Shown here one piece after another: positions 40,407-48,787 of a stretch of 64,000 nucleotides of DNA (positions within the stretch are counted from its first letter, which is position 1; the number at the start of each line of letters is the position of its first letter). The notes beneath the pieces are model-generated. The model had not been told where the DNA came from, ran no database searches, and saw nothing but the letters and a program-made list of their open reading frames with translations. The position numbers and the translations under genes were made by a program. Where the stretch lies: contig NZ_FOLV01000014.1 in assembly GCF_900112415.1 (NCBI RefSeq), positions 1-64,000 on the forward strand, written 5' to 3'. This stretch comes from Bacillus sp. 491mf. Its GTDB lineage: Bacteria > Bacillota > Bacilli > Bacillales > Bacillaceae_G.

Positions 40407-40748
40407 ATGATTGGGAGAAATATTTATCAAATTCGAAAGAAAAGGGGACTTACTTTATCCGAATTAGCAGAGAAGGCTGGAATTTCAAAATCTTATTTAA
40501 GCAATATTGAAAGAAGTATAAATCAGAATCCGTCTATCCAGGTGCTAGAAAAGATAGGATTAGTATTAGAAGCAGATCTTAATACATTACTCGAAATGAA
40601 TGCAAATACAGAAACAATACAGCAGATTGAAAAAGAGTGGGTTGATTTTGTTTATGAATTAAAAAAGGCAGGGATTAATAAAGAAAAGCTCGGGGATTAT
40701 AAAATATTAATCGATTTTATTAAATGGCAGAATTCAGGGGTAAATTAG
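40407..40748 (+). CDS. SinR-like transcriptional regulator
   Basis: Residues 1-65 form a Cro/CI HTH almost motif-for-motif with B. subtilis SinR: RKKRGLTLSELAEKAGISKS then YLSNIERSINQNPSIQVLEKIG. The C-terminal part (EWVDFVYELKKAGINKEKL ... LIDFIKWQN) parallels the SinR oligomerisation/SinI-binding domain. 113 residues versus 111 in SinR. GGGGGA precedes ATG 40407. It lies between the eps and lasso loci, both of which carry SinR-type sites, so it is the likely local regulator. No sinI-like gene was found beside it. It may be a paralog of the chromosomal sinR located elsewhere. Confidence 0.85.
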   Translation: MIGRNIYQIRKKRGLTLSELAEKAGISKSYLSNIERSINQNPSIQVLEKIGLVLEADLNTLLEMNANTETIQQIEKEWVDFVYELKKAGINKEKLGDYKILIDFIKWQNSGVN

Positions 40749-41441: not shown

Positions 41442-41454
41442 GGGATAATAATTC

Positions 41455-41496
41455 ACATCACCATTTTGTTCTTTTTATAGAACAAAATGGTGATGT
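41455..41496. promoter_or_regulatory. Perfect 42-base palindrome with SinR-type core
   Basis: Arms 41455-41472 and 41479-41496 are exact 18-base inverted copies around TTTTAT. The centre GTTCTTTTTATAGAAC (41468-41483) is an exact GTTCT-N6-AGAAC dyad. There is no T-run on either strand, so it is not a simple terminator. It could be an operator and/or a 5' UTR stem-loop. Confidence 0.65.
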
Positions 41497-41564
41497 AAAA
41501 AAATTATATGTATAGAATCAATTCGCAGATCTTATCTGTCATTTTTGTAAAATAATATAGGATT

Positions 41565-41765: not shown

Positions 41766-43706
41766 ATGAGTGCTATAACTGGAATTTTACATTTTAACAA
41801 TGAGTCTATACCAATTGAATATGGTATTAGATTAATGAAGGATTTGCAAAAATATCCTGCTAATGATATTCAAATATGGCACAAAGAAAACGTTTTCCTC
41901 GGCTGTCATGCACAATGGATCACACCAGAGTCCGTTGGTGAACAATTGCCCTTTTATGATAATGAAAGAAAATTGGCAATTACAGCAGATGCTATTATCG
42001 ACAATCGTGAGGAGTTATTTGAGAGGTTGCAAGTTGATTATGTTGATAGGAAAAGGATAACAGATAGTCAGTTGATTTTGCTCTCCTATCAAAAATGGGG
42101 GGAAGAAAGCCCTAAATATTTGGTAGGCGATTTTGCTTTTATGATTTGGGATGAAAAAAATCATAAATTATTTGGAGCAAGGGACTTTTCTGGGGGCCGA
42201 ACGCTATATTATTGTTGTAATCAACAGCAATTCGCTTTTTGTACGACGATACAACCATTGCTATCATTACCTTATGTACAAAAGCAATTAAATGAACAGT
42301 GGCTTGCTGAATACTTGGCGATATGTGGAATTGTCGATGTAGCCGATACTACTATAACGCCTTATAAAAATATAGAACAAGTACCACCATCACATAGCAT
42401 TACAGTAGTTGGGAATAAAGTAACGCTTTCTAGATATTGTACGTTAGTTTCAGAAAGAAAGCTACGCTTAAAGTCAAATGAAGAATATGTAGAAGCATTT
42501 CAAGATGTTTTTCAAAAGGCTGTTACATCCCGATTACGAACTTACCGACAAGTTGGAGCACAGTTAAGTGGAGGATTGGATTCGGGTTCTATTGTGAGCT
42601 TTGCTGCCAAAGCTTTACGTGAAGAAAACAAACCATTACATACATTTAGCTACATACCACCAAATGATTTCGAGGATTTTACACCTAAACATTTAATGCC
42701 GGATGAGCGACCGCTTATTAAAGAAACGGTACGACATGTAGGAGGTATAAAAGATAATTATTTAGATTTTAAGGGAAGAGATCCTTTTTCTGAAATAACG
42801 GATTTTCTCGAAATAATGGAGATGCCATATAAATTCTTTGAGAATTCTTTTTGGCTGAAAGGTATGTTTGAGGAAGGATACAAGGAAGAAGTTGGAGTCC
42901 TTTTAAATGGTGGAAGAGGAAATCTATCTATATCATGGGGATCAGCTCTGGATTATTATGCTCTTCTTTTAAAAAGGCTAAAGTGGATTCGCCTAGGTCA
43001 AGAACTGCATCAATATAGTAAAAATGTAGGTGGAGCTAGATTACGGAGGTTACCATACATTGCGAGATTGGCATTTCCGTCTATTGATAAAGCGCTTTCA
43101 TCAGGTGCGCCGTATACATTTCCGATGATAATAAATCCAGATTTTGCGAAAAAGATGGATGTGTTTAATAAACTTAGAGAAAATGGCATTGATGAAGCGG
43201 AATGGGCTTCTACAACGAACTTATTTGAACAAAGAAAAAGCCATTTTGAAGAGTTGTTTTATTGGAATGCAAGTAATACAGTGGCAACGAAATTATCATT
43301 GAATTACTCATTATGGAAACGCGATCCAAGTAATGACATACGTGTGATTCGTTATTGTTTATCTGTACCAGAAGAGCAATATGTACAAAACGGTGTGGAT
43401 CGTGCGTTGATTCGTAGATCTACCGAAAAGTATTTGCCTGATAAAGTACGATTAAATCAAAATATTCAGGGTGTACAAGGAGCGGATTGGGTTCATCGAA
43501 TGAGCCCGCACTGGAATATGTTTATAGAAGAGTTAGAGCGAATGAGTACAGACCAAAAAGCTTTAGAATTTTTAGATGGTGAAGTAATAAATCGAGCTCT
43601 TCTAAAAGCTAAAGAGGGGCCACTTTCAGAACGTGCAATCGATCCTGATTATAAGATTTTAATGCGTAGCTTAATTGTTTATCGATTTATTCAACAATTT
43701 ACTTGA
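41766..43706 (+). CDS. Lasso cyclase, asparagine synthetase-like (LasC/PadeC type)
   Basis: ATP-dependent enzyme that adenylates the ring Asp/Glu side chain of the core peptide and closes the macrolactam. It has a class II glutamine amidotransferase-like N-terminal domain (1-230) whose usual Cys 2 nucleophile is missing (starts MSAITGILHF), as in lasso cyclases, which do not hydrolyse glutamine. The C-terminal synthetase domain carries the pyrophosphate loop SGGLDS at about 265-270. 646 residues, normal for the family. GGAGG is 6 bases before the ATG. It is the first gene of the cluster and ends 14 bases before the precursor gene. Confidence 0.92.
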   Translation: MSAITGILHFNNESIPIEYGIRLMKDLQKYPANDIQIWHKENVFLGCHAQWITPESVGEQLPFYDNERKLAITADAIIDNREELFERLQVDYVDRKRITDSQLILLSYQKWGEESPKYLVGDFAFMIWDEKNHKLFGARDFSGGRTLYYCCNQQQFAFCTTIQPLLSLPYVQKQLNEQWLAEYLAICGIVDVADTTITPYKNIEQVPPSHSITVVGNKVTLSRYCTLVSERKLRLKSNEEYVEAFQDVFQKAVTSRLRTYRQVGAQLSGGLDSGSIVSFAAKALREENKPLHTFSYIPPNDFEDFTPKHLMPDERPLIKETVRHVGGIKDNYLDFKGRDPFSEITDFLEIMEMPYKFFENSFWLKGMFEEGYKEEVGVLLNGGRGNLSISWGSALDYYALLLKRLKWIRLGQELHQYSKNVGGARLRRLPYIARLAFPSIDKALSSGAPYTFPMIINPDFAKKMDVFNKLRENGIDEAEWASTTNLFEQRKSHFEELFYWNASNTVATKLSLNYSLWKRDPSNDIRVIRYCLSVPEEQYVQNGVDRALIRRSTEKYLPDKVRLNQNIQGVQGADWVHRMSPHWNMFIEELERMSTDQKALEFLDGEVINRALLKAKEGPLSERAIDPDYKILMRSLIVYRFIQQFT

Positions 43707-43720
43707 AAGGAGGTGAGAAT

Positions 43721-43876
43721 ATGAAAAAGGAATGGCAACAACCTGTATTAGAAGTACTTGATGTTAACATGACAATGGCTTCAACAGTTTATGGTCCATA
43801 TACTGATGAAGCATACAACCCTGGTCACCCTGTTGATCCAAAAAATCCTGATACTTGGAACCGTTTTACTAGCTGA
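43721..43876 (+). CDS. Lasso peptide precursor (paeninodin-type leader), 51 residues
   Basis: Short gene between cyclase and kinase. Leader MKKEWQQPVLEVLDVNMTM matches the paeninodin-family leader pattern (KKEW, then P-x-LEVLDVNMTMA). The leader/core border lies near MTMA-STVYGPYTDE. The remainder runs AYNPGHPVDPKNPDTW and ends NRFTS, with a C-terminal Ser, the residue phosphorylated by the kinase in paeninodin. AAAGGAGGTGA 6 bases before the ATG is a near-perfect ribosome binding site, consistent with high synthesis. If Ala is residue 1 the first acidic residue is Asp 10. If the following Ser is residue 1, it is Asp 9, the usual ring size. The 31-32 residue core is long for a lasso peptide. 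Confidence 0.9.
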   Translation: MKKEWQQPVLEVLDVNMTMASTVYGPYTDEAYNPGHPVDPKNPDTWNRFTS

Positions 43877-43963
43877 GTAAGGATTAGCATATACAATTTA
43901 TCTTGCTGAATGTATATCTATGAAAATATGTAAAATGTTCTTATTTTTAAGTTCGTATATGCT

Positions 43964-44008
43964 AAAAAGACCTTTATACTTTTATATTGTATAAAGGTCT
44001 TTAATTTA
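43964..44008 (+). terminator. Hairpin between precursor and kinase genes
   Basis: AAAGACCTTTATAC pairs with GTATAAAGGTCTTT, then AATTT. It probably terminates part of the transcripts, giving more precursor than modification enzymes, or protects the 3' end. Confidence 0.7.
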
Positions 44009-44034
44009 ACCATGGATATATTGGGGTGAAAATA

Positions 44035-44961
44035 ATGCTAGAAACTGAAAAAAAGGTAATGTATAAAGCCTTTGATTTCAAAATTTCAAGTGAGATTCCT
44101 TTGCCGGAATTACATCGAATAAATGAACAAGAGGTTTCAATAGACATTGAAATTCAAATTGATAATATGTTAAGTTTTTCCTCTGAATTAGTAGATACAC
44201 CATTTAAACATGTTGTTAAAGATAATCAAGTGATGTTTTATGTTCCTGATGTGGGCTTTTTTTCCGCTCAAGCGGGAAAAAGGATAGCAGTTTGCCCGCT
44301 CGATGGTGCAGATGATAGTTTGGTGAGGCTCTATATTCTTGGAACATGTATGGGTGTAATATTGATGCAAAAAAAAATACTTCCACTGCATGGCAGTGCT
44401 GTAGTAATTGATGGGAAAGCATATGCTTTTGTAGGTGAGTCAGGTGCTGGAAAGTCGACGTTAGCTTCGGCGTTCATGAAGAAAGGATATAAACTTCTAA
44501 GTGATGATGTAATACCTGTATCTCTTTCTAATGATAATGTTCCTATCGTAACACCATCATATCCGCAGCAAAAGTTATGGCAAGAAAGTCTTGATAATTT
44601 TGGTATGGATAAAAGTCAATATAAATCAATATATGGTAGAGAAAATAAATACAGTGTTCCAGTTTCTTCTCATTATTTTTCTAAGCCAGTACCACTTGCA
44701 GGTGTATTTGAATTAGTAAAGACAGAGAATGAAATGGTTGAATTACAACCAATAGAAAAACTTGAGCGTTTACATACCATTTTCCGTCAAACTTATCGTA
44801 ATTTTCTTATTCCACGCTTAGGATTAATGGACTGGCACTTTCATATTTCTACAAATATGATAAACAACCTTGCTGTTTATCGATTATGTCGACCGTTGTC
44901 TGGATTTAGTGCTCCGCAACTAGTAGACCTAGTAATAAACACTGTAAAAAAAGGAGAATAA
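44035..44961 (+). CDS. Lasso peptide kinase (HPr kinase-like, PadeK/ThcoK type)
   Basis: Expected to phosphorylate the C-terminal Ser of the precursor, as shown for paeninodin-family kinases. P-loop GESGAGKST lies at about 134-142, with LLSDDVIPV downstream in the position of the HPr kinase acidic motif and LPLHGSAVVIDGKAYAF ahead of the P-loop. ATG 44035 with GGGGTG is preferred to GTG 44026. 308 residues. It is the first gene after the internal hairpin, with the B1 gene 4 bases downstream. Confidence 0.88.
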   Translation: MLETEKKVMYKAFDFKISSEIPLPELHRINEQEVSIDIEIQIDNMLSFSSELVDTPFKHVVKDNQVMFYVPDVGFFSAQAGKRIAVCPLDGADDSLVRLYILGTCMGVILMQKKILPLHGSAVVIDGKAYAFVGESGAGKSTLASAFMKKGYKLLSDDVIPVSLSNDNVPIVTPSYPQQKLWQESLDNFGMDKSQYKSIYGRENKYSVPVSSHYFSKPVPLAGVFELVKTENEMVELQPIEKLERLHTIFRQTYRNFLIPRLGLMDWHFHISTNMINNLAVYRLCRPLSGFSAPQLVDLVINTVKKGE

Positions 44962-44964
44962 GTG

Positions 44965-45270
44965 ATGTCGAAAAAACAGGATATTTTATTAAATCAATTT
45001 ATTGCACAAGTCCCAGGGAATATAGTAAGTGATATGGATGGAGAAAAAGTAATGTTAAGTATTTCTAATGGGAAATACTACAATCTAGGTGCAGTAGGTG
45101 GAACTATTTGGGCGCTTATAGAGAAACCCATATCGGTTACGAAAGTGGTTACTGAATTAATGCAAGAATATGAGATTGATCAGTCTACATGTGAAAAGCA
45201 AGTTATTTCTTTTTTGGAACTCTTGTTAGATGAAGCTTTGGTTGAAATCGTAGACGGGACAGCCGAGTAA
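44965..45270 (+). CDS. Lasso RiPP recognition element protein B1 (PqqD-like)
   Basis: About 100-residue PqqD-fold protein that binds the leader peptide and delivers it to the B2 protease. The hallmark SNGKYYNLGAVGGTIWALIE is present near 35-55, followed by a helical half (VVTELMQEYEID). AAGGAG lies 9 bases before ATG 44965. Firmicutes lasso clusters typically split B into B1 and B2, as here. Confidence 0.92.
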   Translation: MSKKQDILLNQFIAQVPGNIVSDMDGEKVMLSISNGKYYNLGAVGGTIWALIEKPISVTKVVTELMQEYEIDQSTCEKQVISFLELLLDEALVEIVDGTAE

Positions 45271-45309
45271 TCTAGTATTTTATCCTAGATAAGAAGTAGG
45301 GAAGTGTGT

Positions 45310-45762
45310 ATGAATAGTATAAAAAAGATGCGAACGTTTCTTTCACTAGATATGAAAACAATGTCTTTATTTATAGAGGCTTATATTTATTTGGGGTGGG
45401 CTCGTATTCTTAAAGGTAGGCCATTCTCTAAGATTGCTCCTACATTAGGTGTTCCTATGAATGAAACATCTTTAAGTTATAATGAGTCTAATAAATTTGT
45501 ATTGAGAGATATTTCCGAAGCAATACATATTATGAGCCGTCATACCTTTTGGGAAAGTAAGTGTCTTGTAAGGGCAATTGCTGGAATGAAAATGCTAGAG
45601 AGACGACAAATGGAGAGTACATTATATTTAGGAACTGCGAAGGATGAGAACGGAAATATGATTGCTCATGCATGGTTGCGTAGTGGTCCTTTTTATATTA
45701 CTGGAGCAGAAGAAATGAAGAGATTCACTGTAGTAAATAAATTTGCTAGAAAAATTGGTTAA
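45310..45762 (+). CDS. Lasso leader peptidase B2 (transglutaminase-like)
   Basis: Cysteine protease that removes the leader. ESKCLVRAIAG (Cys near residue 86) and IAHAWLRSG (His near 119) are the Cys and His of the catalytic triad. The Asp usually found shortly after the His is not obvious (SGPFYITGAEE here), so the third residue may be different. 150 residues, normal length. ATG 45310 follows GGGAAG. It is followed after 19 bases by the nucleotidyltransferase gene. Confidence 0.9.
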   Translation: MNSIKKMRTFLSLDMKTMSLFIEAYIYLGWARILKGRPFSKIAPTLGVPMNETSLSYNESNKFVLRDISEAIHIMSRHTFWESKCLVRAIAGMKMLERRQMESTLYLGTAKDENGNMIAHAWLRSGPFYITGAEEMKRFTVVNKFARKIG

Positions 45763-45783
45763 AAAATCTTGAAGGAGAATATC

Positions 45784-46971
45784 ATGCATAATAGTTGTGG
45801 GCTTGATTTAAATTGTGTGACTAAGGAGCTCAAATTGCAGCTGGAAATTATGAAAAGAGAAACTGCTGCGGAGCTACAAGAAATCGATAAGGCTTGGTTT
45901 GCAAACATCGATTGGGATAAATTTCTCGAATTAACAATTCATCACCGTGTGTACTCGTTCATTTATCCAAAGATGAAAGAATTGGATGGGAATTTGGTTC
46001 CTGTATATGTCATACAAACTTTACATCAATATTTTAAGATGAATACATTTCAAATGCTTCATTTAAGTGCAGAAATGGAACATATGAGTAAATTGTTTGC
46101 ACAAAACGAAATTCGTCTCCTTGTATTAAAAGGTCCTGTACTTGCTGATGATCTTTATGGTGATATTTCTCTACGTACTTCGAGTGATTTGGATGTTCTC
46201 ATTCCTTTACATCATCTCGATAGAGCGGAAGAACTTTTATTGAACCTTGGCTATGTGAAAGATGATTATATTGAGAGCGTTTTAAACGACTGGAAATGGA
46301 GACATCATCATGTAACATATATTCATCCTCAGAAGAACATTAAGATTGAAATTCATTGGAGATTAAATCCTGGTCCAGGAAAGGAACCACATTTTGAGGA
46401 ACTATGGAATCGAAAGAGAATAAGTTCTCTTACTAGTGCCCCTGTTTACATTTTAGGTAGAGAGGATTTATTTTTATTTCTAGTTTCTCATGGTGCACGT
46501 CATGGTTGGTCAAGGCTACGTTGGTTAGTAGACATTAATCAAATTGTAAAGCAAAAACTTGATTGGGAAAAAACTATTAAGTTATTGAAGAAAAATTATT
46601 ACTTTCATATAGGTGGTCAAGCATTGTTTTTAACTTCGCAGTTACTAAAGACTCCATTAATTGAAGAAGTGGAACCATTGTTATCTGGTAACCGTCCGAA
46701 GATGTTAGCGCAGGAAGCGGTATTTTATTTGGAAAGAATGGTAAACTTACATACAGATCCTGTTCCGGAAGATATAGCAATGTACCATAGTCGGCATTTA
46801 TTTTCATTAATGTCTTATCAGCAAAAGTTTTTATATATTATGAGTTGCCTTTATCCTTATCCAATTGATGCTGAAACATTGCCGTTACCTAAGCAACTTC
46901 ATATGTTGTACTTTCCTTTACGTCCTATTTTATGCATCTGGAGAAAAATAAGAAAGCGCGAATTAACATGA
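45784..46971 (+). CDS. Lasso-associated nucleotidyltransferase-fold protein (PF14907 type)
   Basis: About 395 residues with the NTP_transf_5 core: LLVLKGPVLADDLYGDISLR followed by SSDLDVLIPL, where the DxD pair is the nucleotide/metal site, and IKIEIHWRLNP as the third acidic strand. The C-terminal half is helical and basic. Related genes occur in some Bacillus lasso clusters (pseudomycoidin type), where the product is reported to act on the phosphorylated C-terminal Ser. That role here is inference. The long frame opens at TTG 45769; ATG 45784 with AAGGAG upstream is the better start. Confidence 0.8.
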   Translation: MHNSCGLDLNCVTKELKLQLEIMKRETAAELQEIDKAWFANIDWDKFLELTIHHRVYSFIYPKMKELDGNLVPVYVIQTLHQYFKMNTFQMLHLSAEMEHMSKLFAQNEIRLLVLKGPVLADDLYGDISLRTSSDLDVLIPLHHLDRAEELLLNLGYVKDDYIESVLNDWKWRHHHVTYIHPQKNIKIEIHWRLNPGPGKEPHFEELWNRKRISSLTSAPVYILGREDLFLFLVSHGARHGWSRLRWLVDINQIVKQKLDWEKTIKLLKKNYYFHIGGQALFLTSQLLKTPLIEEVEPLLSGNRPKMLAQEAVFYLERMVNLHTDPVPEDIAMYHSRHLFSLMSYQQKFLYIMSCLYPYPIDAETLPLPKQLHMLYFPLRPILCIWRKIRKRELT

Positions 46972-46984
46972 GGAGGACAAAATA

Positions 46985-48787
46985 GTGGAGCATCTCTTAT
47001 ATTTTGCAAAGAAGTTACATTCTTTTTCTGGGAAAATATTGTATATAAATTTATTAGGAATGGCCTTGGTCAGTCTTTTAGAGGGGGTAGGAATTCTTTT
47101 ATTAATTCCTATGATAAGTATCAGTGGAGTTGTAAAGGTAAATAGTGGTTCAACCCCAGTCCCAGAGATGTTTAAATTTTTGCATAATATCCCTGAAACA
47201 ATAAGTTTGTTGCTTATTTTAGGCATTTATATCTTTTTGGTAATAGCTCAGTCCCTCTTGCAACAAAATCTTGCTCTTCGCAATACAAAAATTCTTATGA
47301 ATTTTACAAACTATATAAGATTGGAAATTTATCGTTCTTTATTACAGGCAAATTGGTCTTTTTTTATAAAAAAGAGGAAGTCTGATCTTATCAATGCGAT
47401 GACTGAAGAATTAGGACGCGTTATAAATGGAACAAACTTATTTTTTCAGATGTTAACTGCACTTGTTTTTACAATAATACAGTTCGGAATCGCCTTATGG
47501 CTATCTGTAAAAATAACAATTTTTGTACTATTCGCTGGTTTAGTACTTGCTTATTTTTCTAGACATTTTATAAAAAAGTCAAGGACGTTAGGGAATCAAA
47601 CATCGGAGATAGCCAAAAGTTATCTTGGTGGTATAACAGACTATTTTAATGGAGTTAAAGATATTAAAAGTAATATGTTGGAAGAATCCAGATATACATG
47701 GTTGCATACTTGGTGCAAAAGGATAGAGCAAGAGCAATTGGCATTTATAAAATTGAAAAATAGCTCACAACTTTTTTATAAAGTTACATCGTCTATTCTA
47801 ATCGCATTTCTTATTTTTACATCTGTAAAACTATTTCAAGCTCAGCCTGGACAATTAATATTAATTATCCTTATTTTTTCTAGATTATGGCCGCGATTTA
47901 CAACTATTCAGTCTAACCTGGAACAACTTGCTGCAAGTGTTCCTGCGTTTAAGTCTTTAATCGAATTACAAGAAGACTGTCACAGAGCCGCAGAACTGCA
48001 TGATTTAGAACGACAATATAAAGATGCAAAACCAATGTCTATAGATAAGGGGATTGAATGTCGGGATATTTATTTCTGTTACAATTCGAAGGAATCTTTA
48101 TATGCTCTTCAAAATATTAATTTCCAAATAAACTCCAATTGTATGACTGCTATTGTCGGACAATCGGGTGCTGGAAAAAGTACACTAATTGATATTTTAA
48201 TGGGACTTATGCAGCCAGAAAAAGGACAAGTGTTAATAGATGGAATCCCTCTCACAAATGATAATTTATTATCATTCAGAAAATGTATTAGCTATGTTTC
48301 ACAGGATCCATTTTTATTCAATGCAAGCATAAGAGAAAATTTGTTGATGGTTGAACCAAATGCAAGTGAAGAACAAATATGGGAGTCGCTGGAATTTTCA
48401 GCTGCTGCTGAATTTGTACGAAGACTACCACACGGGCTTGATACTCTTATTGGAGATCGCGGAGTGAGGCTTTCTGGAGGAGAAAGACAGCGACTTGTAC
48501 TTGCAAGAGCTATTTTAAGAAAACCTTCAATTCTAGTATTAGATGAAGCGACAAGTGCGTTAGATACGGAAAACGAAGCAAAAATTCAATCTGCTCTAGA
48601 AAGATTAAAAGGAAAAATGACCATTATCGTGATTGCTCATCGTTTATCAACGATACGTAATGCTGATCAAGTAATTGTATTAGATAAGGGAAAAATCGTT
48701 CAAAAAGGAGCCTTTATCCAATTGGCGAAAGAAGAAAGTGGTATGTTTAGTAAGTTGTTAGGAAATCAAGTTGAAGTTAGTGTTTAG
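46985..48787 (+). CDS. Lasso peptide ABC exporter (LasD type)
   Basis: Homodimeric exporter, membrane domain at about 20-300 with five to six helices and a nucleotide-binding domain from about 350. Walker A GQSGAGKST lies at about 391-399, signature LSGGERQR near 497 and Walker B ILVLDEAT. It exports the mature peptide and usually gives self-immunity. GTG 46985 is preceded by AGGAGG 8 bases away. It lacks an N-terminal C39 peptidase domain, consistent with leader removal by B2. Last gene of the cluster. Confidence 0.92.
   Translation: MEHLLYFAKKLHSFSGKILYINLLGMALVSLLEGVGILLLIPMISISGVVKVNSGSTPVPEMFKFLHNIPETISLLLILGIYIFLVIAQSLLQQNLALRNTKILMNFTNYIRLEIYRSLLQANWSFFIKKRKSDLINAMTEELGRVINGTNLFFQMLTALVFTIIQFGIALWLSVKITIFVLFAGLVLAYFSRHFIKKSRTLGNQTSEIAKSYLGGITDYFNGVKDIKSNMLEESRYTWLHTWCKRIEQEQLAFIKLKNSSQLFYKVTSSILIAFLIFTSVKLFQAQPGQLILIILIFSRLWPRFTTIQSNLEQLAASVPAFKSLIELQEDCHRAAELHDLERQYKDAKPMSIDKGIECRDIYFCYNSKESLYALQNINFQINSNCMTAIVGQSGAGKSTLIDILMGLMQPEKGQVLIDGIPLTNDNLLSFRKCISYVSQDPFLFNASIRENLLMVEPNASEEQIWESLEFSAAAEFVRRLPHGLDTLIGDRGVRLSGGERQRLVLARAILRKPSILVLDEATSALDTENEAKIQSALERLKGKMTIIVIAHRLSTIRNADQVIVLDKGKIVQKGAFIQLAKEESGMFSKLLGNQVEVSV

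Follow-up and report, generated by a model that had tools for sequence, protein, structure and literature searches.

For the known lasso peptides paeninodin and pseudomycoidin, the listed cores start AGPG and carry Asp at position 9 (PMC12427821). Lasso leaders are described as having a conserved Thr two residues ahead of the core (PMC10368454), and the AGPG starts fit a cut two residues after this Thr. We analyzed a stretch of 64,000 nucleotides from Bacillus sp. 491mf (contig NZ_FOLV01000014.1, positions 1 to 64,000), which we refer to as the window. Between positions 41766 and 48787, the window holds all seven lasso genes on one strand in the order C-A-K-B1-B2-N-D, a complete paeninodin-type set (Table 1). 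Judged from the precursor A and its relatives, the product of this cluster probably carries a ring of ten residues, Ala1–Asp10.

The leader of A, MKKEWQQPVLEVLDVNMTM, has the WxxPx[L/V] motif and Thr(−2). A matches the paeninodin (PadeA) family NF033524 with 58.1 bits at a cut-off of 27, while a Pfam search gave no match. This agrees with an earlier sequence-only reading of the same DNA, which had assigned the leader to the paeninodin pattern. In the Thr(−2) register, the core is ASTVYGPYTDEAYNPGHPVDPKNPDTWNRFTS, which begins with Ala, comprises 32 residues and ends with Ser. The core start ASTVYGPYTDEAYNP has no acid at positions 7–9; the first acid is Asp10 and the next is Glu11. The sequence-only reading had the core start at Ser; by the Thr(−2) rule, it starts with the preceding Ala. 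Starting at Ser silently shifts the cut, so that the Asp is counted as residue 9 and Asp10 is hidden. In the Thr(−2) register, the predicted ring of the window core lies outside the characterized range of seven to nine residues.

A genome scan with the window cyclase matched 184 stretches, 155 of which encode a relative; the best 80 were kept and gave 79 loci. A leader pattern search over these loci and the window returned 105 matches, from which three without an acid at positions 7–10 were dropped (L011 at 1562, L023 at 11680 and L071 at 646). None of the three has an MKKxW leader; one is located inside a cyclase gene and the other two are distant from the cluster. That every one of the 102 precursors has Asp9 or Asp10 holds because these three matches were judged to be non-precursors. 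The pattern demanded Thr(−2), so that the conservation of this residue is no result. At the leader position where Trp, Tyr or Phe was allowed, all 102 precursors have Trp, and 101 end with Ser. Asp9 is present in 65 of the 102 precursors, and Asp10 without Asp9 is present in the other 37 in the identical register. For 32 of these 37 there is no acid at positions 7–9, and the other five carry an extra acid at 7 or 8. The TDEAY core is shared by 23 of the 37, the window included, and GPYTDEAY by 14.

The exact window core occurs in none of the 101 other precursors, which fits the suggestion of the sequence-only reading that the product may be new. For the core type this part of the suggestion does not hold. 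The TDEAY core is found in 22 other loci, each from the genome of another species, and the window peptide thus belongs to a widespread peptide group. No mention of fragments of the window core was found in the literature searched. L015 has the junction NMTM/AST as in the window, yet it carries Asp9, and L043 and L046 have ASASWGLYDEGY and ASAHIGKYDEGY, respectively, with Asp9. By their sequences, these three cores look like the window core minus one ring residue, with the start unchanged. The precursor leader is also normal in L024, where B1 and B2 lie on the opposite strand, and in L067, where no B1 or B2 was found in the locus (E 1e-6).

Nine loci (L002, L006, L007, L012, L014, L016, L020, L028 and L062) carry two cyclase-precursor pairs, C1-A1(Asp10)-C2-A2(Asp9), together with one K-B1-B2 set. 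Exactly one B2 was found in each of the seven genomes that were searched whole, which are all nine except L006 and L012. The leaders of A1 and A2 in these loci are very similar. With one peptidase and two very similar leaders, the same cut register is expected for both precursors, and this leaves a ten-residue ring for A1. We consider these two-pair loci with a single shared peptidase a stronger argument than the contrast between gene trees discussed below. They offer a naturally occurring test of the determinants of ring size. Several of the second precursors have two Cys (e.g. NGPGNANADCFD...NASC).

The single peptidase bears directly on the main alternative, a leader cut one residue later (TMA/STV). 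The conserved Thr would then be Thr(−3) and the product would have an ordinary nine-residue ring, Ser1–Asp9, as implied by the core of the sequence-only reading. Such a cut could hold clade-wide, in which case LG-type members with Asp9 would form Gly1–Asp8 rings. It yields ring sizes that are already known. At position 2, the Asp10 group has Ser in 23 precursors, Asn in six and Asp in four, with His, Gln, Ala and Gly once each. A Ser1 start is given for lariocidin and streptomonomicin (PMC12427821), metanodin provides one precedent for Asn1 (PMC12670498), and of the 65 Asp9 precursors, 50 have Gly as their second residue. The later cut would, however, make Asp the first residue in 4/37, His in 1/37 and Gln in 1/37 of the Asp10 precursors. 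It leaves unexplained that position 1 in this group is always Ala (32), Leu (3) or Gly (2), residues that are common there in the Asp9 group too. Paeninodin and pseudomycoidin, which are of the AGPG type, are listed from Ala directly after this leader position (PMC12427821), which speaks against the later cut for that type; no characterized product of the LG or Asp10 type was found in the literature searched. In the nine two-pair loci, one B2 serves both classes through very similar leaders. We regard the later cut as the most serious competitor, though an unlikely one, and prefer the Ala1–Asp10 ring.

On the cyclase tree, the Asp9/Asp10 label changes only twice, with 93 rows and again with 98 rows. 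In the careful tree of 98 cyclases, the range over the bootstrap, which is not fully settled, is 2–2, and shuffled labels give a mean of 29.7–29.9 changes. Five cyclases without a label were given their precursor afterwards; cyclase fragments that scored below 100 bits or lay in frames shorter than 500 residues were excluded. Clustering of the label is also seen on the trees of the other genes. With mixed-class loci unlabelled, the least number of changes there is 7 for K, 10 for N, 11 for D, 13 for B1 and 12 for B2, and an earlier B2 tree gave 11 changes for Asp10 and 16 for Asp9. The window cyclase groups with the cyclases of Asp10 precursors. In this set of sequences, the Asp10 register is associated with a single region of the cyclase tree.

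Within the same larger clade, 37 Asp10 cyclases were compared with 19 Asp9 cyclases, a group delimited by hand on the 93-row tree. The cleanest group differences are sites 383 and 387, both within the NGxRGNx motif. Site 383 is mostly Gly, Ala or Thr in the Asp10 group and Asp in all 19 cyclases of the Asp9 group. Site 387 is Leu in 34 of 37 and Phe in 13 of 19, respectively. The next sites are 499, 436, 503 and 493; site 499 is His in 33 of the 37 Asp10 cyclases and Tyr in the window. Sites 383 and 387 are the first candidates for ring-size control suggested by this comparison and could help peptide engineering. We think it rather probable that ten-residue rings are closed by a natural cyclase clade distributed over relatives of Bacillus and Paenibacillus, and that ring size is a property of the cyclase-precursor cassette. 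K, the RRE, the peptidase, N and the exporter would be shared and exchanged between the ring classes.

Several points weigh against a ten-residue ring set by the cyclase. With C adjoining A, linkage would make the label track the cyclase tree irrespective of the cause, and it accounts for part of the tree contrast. The starred branches of the other trees force only 2 changes for K, 1 for N, 4 for D, 2 for B1 and 1 for B2, and B1 and B2 are short, with poorly resolved trees. In a survey of the class, PadeA-family matches (E up to 0.001) came from 40 of 398 genomes. Of the 69 matches listed, the top 30 gave 36 precursors, and all 36 carry Asp9. These top 30 favor AGPG-like cores and the matches ranked below them include, by their coordinates, the Asp10 precursors of L002 and L020, so that the survey gives nothing firm on how common Asp10 is. 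Structurally characterized lasso rings have 7, 8 or 9 residues according to a review of June 2026 (PMC13352647), and ring acids are given at positions 7–9 (PMC10368454). One enzyme set makes the caulosegnin rings of 8 and 9 residues (PMC13352647); with one cyclase for two ring sizes, ring size need not depend on C alone. The later cut would give the 50 Asp9 precursors with Gly at position 2 an ordinary lasso start, Gly1. Rings above nine residues are called too loose to hold the tail (PMC12427821).

This looseness, together with the existence of linear phosphorylated relatives (PMC13381572), would fit a product in which Asp10 is not the acceptor or in which no threaded ring forms. Such a product could be a plain lariat, an unthreaded ring or a linear phosphopeptide similar to the linear polyphosphorylated peptides (LPPs). 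We consider this improbable. The window encodes a full-length cyclase, the SGGLDS and GxRGN motifs show little or no variation among 58 aligned cyclases, Asp10 is present in all 37 precursors of its group, and the aromatic residues near the C terminus, Trp and Phe in the window, could serve as plugs. The fusilassin enzymes have yielded a ten-residue ring in vitro (PMC8498205), and a change in ring size by one residue is described to lower production strongly (PMC13352647). We found no natural ten-residue lasso ring in the literature searched, the coverage of which is incomplete, so that an earlier mention is possible. If the ring of the window peptide has ten residues, natural lasso rings exceed their stated limit of nine, and the claim that larger rings cannot hold the tail becomes directly testable.

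The sequence-only reading had described seven co-directional genes for cyclase, precursor, kinase, B1, B2, nucleotidyltransferase and exporter, and gene calls and family searches agree. For C, the top NCBIfam match is the lasso cyclase NF033535 with 390.8 bits, under the curated cut-off of 525. C is 55–70% identical to cyclases from loci of similar gene order (best 70%), and a search among solved structures gave distant asparagine-synthetase relatives only. B1 matches NF033536 with 136.5 bits (cut-off 80), and B2 matches NF033537 with 105 bits (cut-off 33) and PF13471. N matches PF14907 with 192.3 bits, the gene type of the pseudomycoidin-like nucleotidyltransferase, and has no NCBIfam match. 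In D, ABC_membrane and ABC_tran were found, and D is under every NCBIfam cut-off shown. K matches HprK-type models and generic P-loop families only, each below cut-off. At the level of motifs, the sequence-only reading is borne out. C starts MSAI and lacks Cys2, the glutaminase Cys; B1 contains GKYYNLG with the PqqD-type KYYNLG motif; B2 has its Cys and His in SKCLVRA and AHAWL; and K has the P-loop GESGAGKST in addition to LHGS and SDD. That the cluster is silent or decayed is very improbable, given seven open frames with intact motifs and a gene order that recurs in many of the 79 loci.

In the proposed pathway, B1 would bind the WxxPxL leader of A and hand A to B2, which would cut two residues past the conserved Thr to give Ala1. 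By analogy to paeninodin and pseudomycoidin (PMC9266682), K would phosphorylate the C-terminal Ser and N would probably help to add a hexose to the phosphoserine. C would activate the side chain of Asp10 and join it to the amino group of Ala1, forming the ten-residue ring around the tail, and D would export the product. Taken as a whole, with cut, ring closure, threading, phosphorylation and hexosylation as predicted steps, we favor a paeninodin-type cluster with a ten-residue-ring product with a fair degree of confidence.

Table 1. Features of the lasso peptide locus and its surroundings in the window.
Feature	Position	Strand	Basis or remark
Exopolysaccharide (eps) locus	10550–39538	+	Family searches; upstream of the lasso genes
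SinR/SlrR-like regulator between eps and lasso genes	40407–40748	+	HTH_3; NF046032 SlrR 79 bits, below cut-off 250
C, asparagine-synthetase-like lasso cyclase	41766–43706	+	646 aa; Asn_synthase and GATase_7; tree position among Asp10 cyclases
A, precursor	43721–43876	+	51 aa; NF033524; leader MKKEWQQPVLEVLDVNMTM, core ASTVYGPYTDEAYNPGHPVDPKNPDTWNRFTS
Predicted ring segment Ala1–Asp10 (ASTVYGPYTD)	43778–43807	+	Thr(−2) register and precursor comparison
RNA hairpin, A-K intergenic	43966–44002	+	Perfect 14-bp stem, 9-nt loop; model R1 38.3 bits
K, HprK-like kinase	44035–44961	+	Below-cut-off matches; His, Lys, Asp, Asp residues read from sequence
B1, discrete RRE, PqqD-like	44965–45270	+	NF033536, PF05402
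B2, leader peptidase, transglutaminase-like	45310–45762	+	NF033537, PF13471
N, NTP_transf_5 protein, PsmN-like	45784–46971	+	PF14907
D, ABC exporter	46985–48787	+	GTG start; PF00005, PF00664 (ABC_tran, ABC_membrane)

Between A and K, the whole intergenic stretch folds at a z of −4.43. With a fixed pattern for the 5′ arm, a hairpin of at least 8 pairs is found within 260 bases downstream of 54 of the 102 precursors; the window itself is missed by this pattern. The background elsewhere in the same loci is 0.012 per 260 bases. An alignment brings the window and 41 loci together in 48 rows. In it, 97.9% of cells are paired; this value and the conservation of the arms are inflated, since pairing and arm pattern served to select 47 of its rows. 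Eight of ten pairs are changed on both sides, and the covariation exceeds all 500 shuffles and all slid versions. The covarying counterpart in relatives is GCCCTTATAC ... GTATAAGGGC. Model R1 was trained on these 48 rows, the window among them. On the plus strand (E up to 0.01), a hand count gives R1 matches downstream of the precursor for 54 of the 79 loci. Of these, 38 belong to the 41 loci used in training, where a match is built in, and 16 to the remaining 38, several of these being nearly identical to rows of the training set. In 12 of 12 whole genomes, the best R1 match is the lasso hairpin by hand-matched places. All twelve are training loci and weaker matches occur elsewhere, so that a lasso-only status of the hairpin is not established. 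No Rfam identity could be assigned, as five matches in the stretch are all far under their gathering scores, and a simple terminator scan did not list the hairpin as a standard terminator. The likeliest role would be that of a partial terminator or a stabilizer of the mRNA end that keeps A above the enzymes.

The sequence-only reading also placed the cluster beside an eps locus, and the expected families are found upstream: Wzz, a tyrosine-kinase-like ATPase, EpsG, glycosyltransferases, a pyruvyl transferase and a sugar transferase. Two scanned proteins of this locus are not of polysaccharide families, one being a beta-helix protein and one having no match. Paeninodins, the role of which is described as unknown, are reported to often adjoin capsule loci (PMC13381572). 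This neighborhood is already in print, and the window agrees with it. With 20 eps proteins of the window as queries, 59 of 79 loci show two or more eps-like genes besides the lasso genes themselves, and none of 15 control stretches (20 kb each) does so. These controls were placed arbitrarily in other PadeA-matching genomes, which makes the contrast indicative. By class, such neighbors are present in 24 of 27 Asp10-only loci, 30 of 43 Asp9-only loci and 5 of 9 mixed loci. Shared matrix control of eps and lasso genes by the SinR/SlrR-like regulator is possible. A link of the peptide to exopolysaccharide or biofilm would be a guess from the neighborhood. The terminator scan lists an inverted repeat of at least 20 pairs at 41452–41499, upstream of the cyclase gene, as a terminator-like element of the minus strand.

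By their type (lexA, transketolase), the flanking genes appear to be chromosomal. Against 398 sampled genomes of the class, the window DNA is 66–73% identical among the matches listed. A mobile-element origin was considered, and 72,556 plasmid records contain one comparable cluster, which makes this not a common plasmid cluster. The plasmid-borne relative is located in Priestia aryabhattai (NZ_CP064100.1, 58984–65369) with 69.6% DNA identity over 65% of the query. Its precursor, 62.5% identical over residues 1–32, is the sole precursor match among the plasmid records.

LPP clusters share with the window an RRE, an HprK kinase, a nucleoside triphosphate (NTP) transferase, an MsbA-like exporter and the proximity to capsule loci (PMC13381572). 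In contrast to the window, which has a cyclase, LPPs are described as made without one and with a SipW-like peptidase (PMC13381572). An LPP precursor in the window was rejected, since the leader motif YxxPxVLxHQxIxFET is absent and the cyclase is present; no search for a SipW-like peptidase was made. LPP-type precursor motifs lie beside lasso clusters in 3 of the 79 loci (L008 at 4425, L055 at 8062 and L067 at 3929).

Paeninodin from Paenibacillus dendritiformis resembles the window system in its precursor family NF033524 and in an HprK-like kinase that acts on the C-terminal Ser (PMC9266682). It differs in its core AGPGTSTPDAF... with Asp9 (PMC12427821), compared to Asp10 and a 32-residue core in the window, and the cyclase tree places the AGPG-type enzymes in a different region from the window cyclase. 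Pseudomycoidin from Bacillus pseudomycoides has an N gene too, and its C-terminal Ser is phosphorylated and hexosylated (PMC9266682), while its core AGPGKRLVDQ... again has Asp9 (PMC12427821). The ring of ten in the fusilassin-enzyme analogue was made in vitro (PMC8498205), whereas the window represents a natural precursor-cyclase group for which such a ring is predicted.

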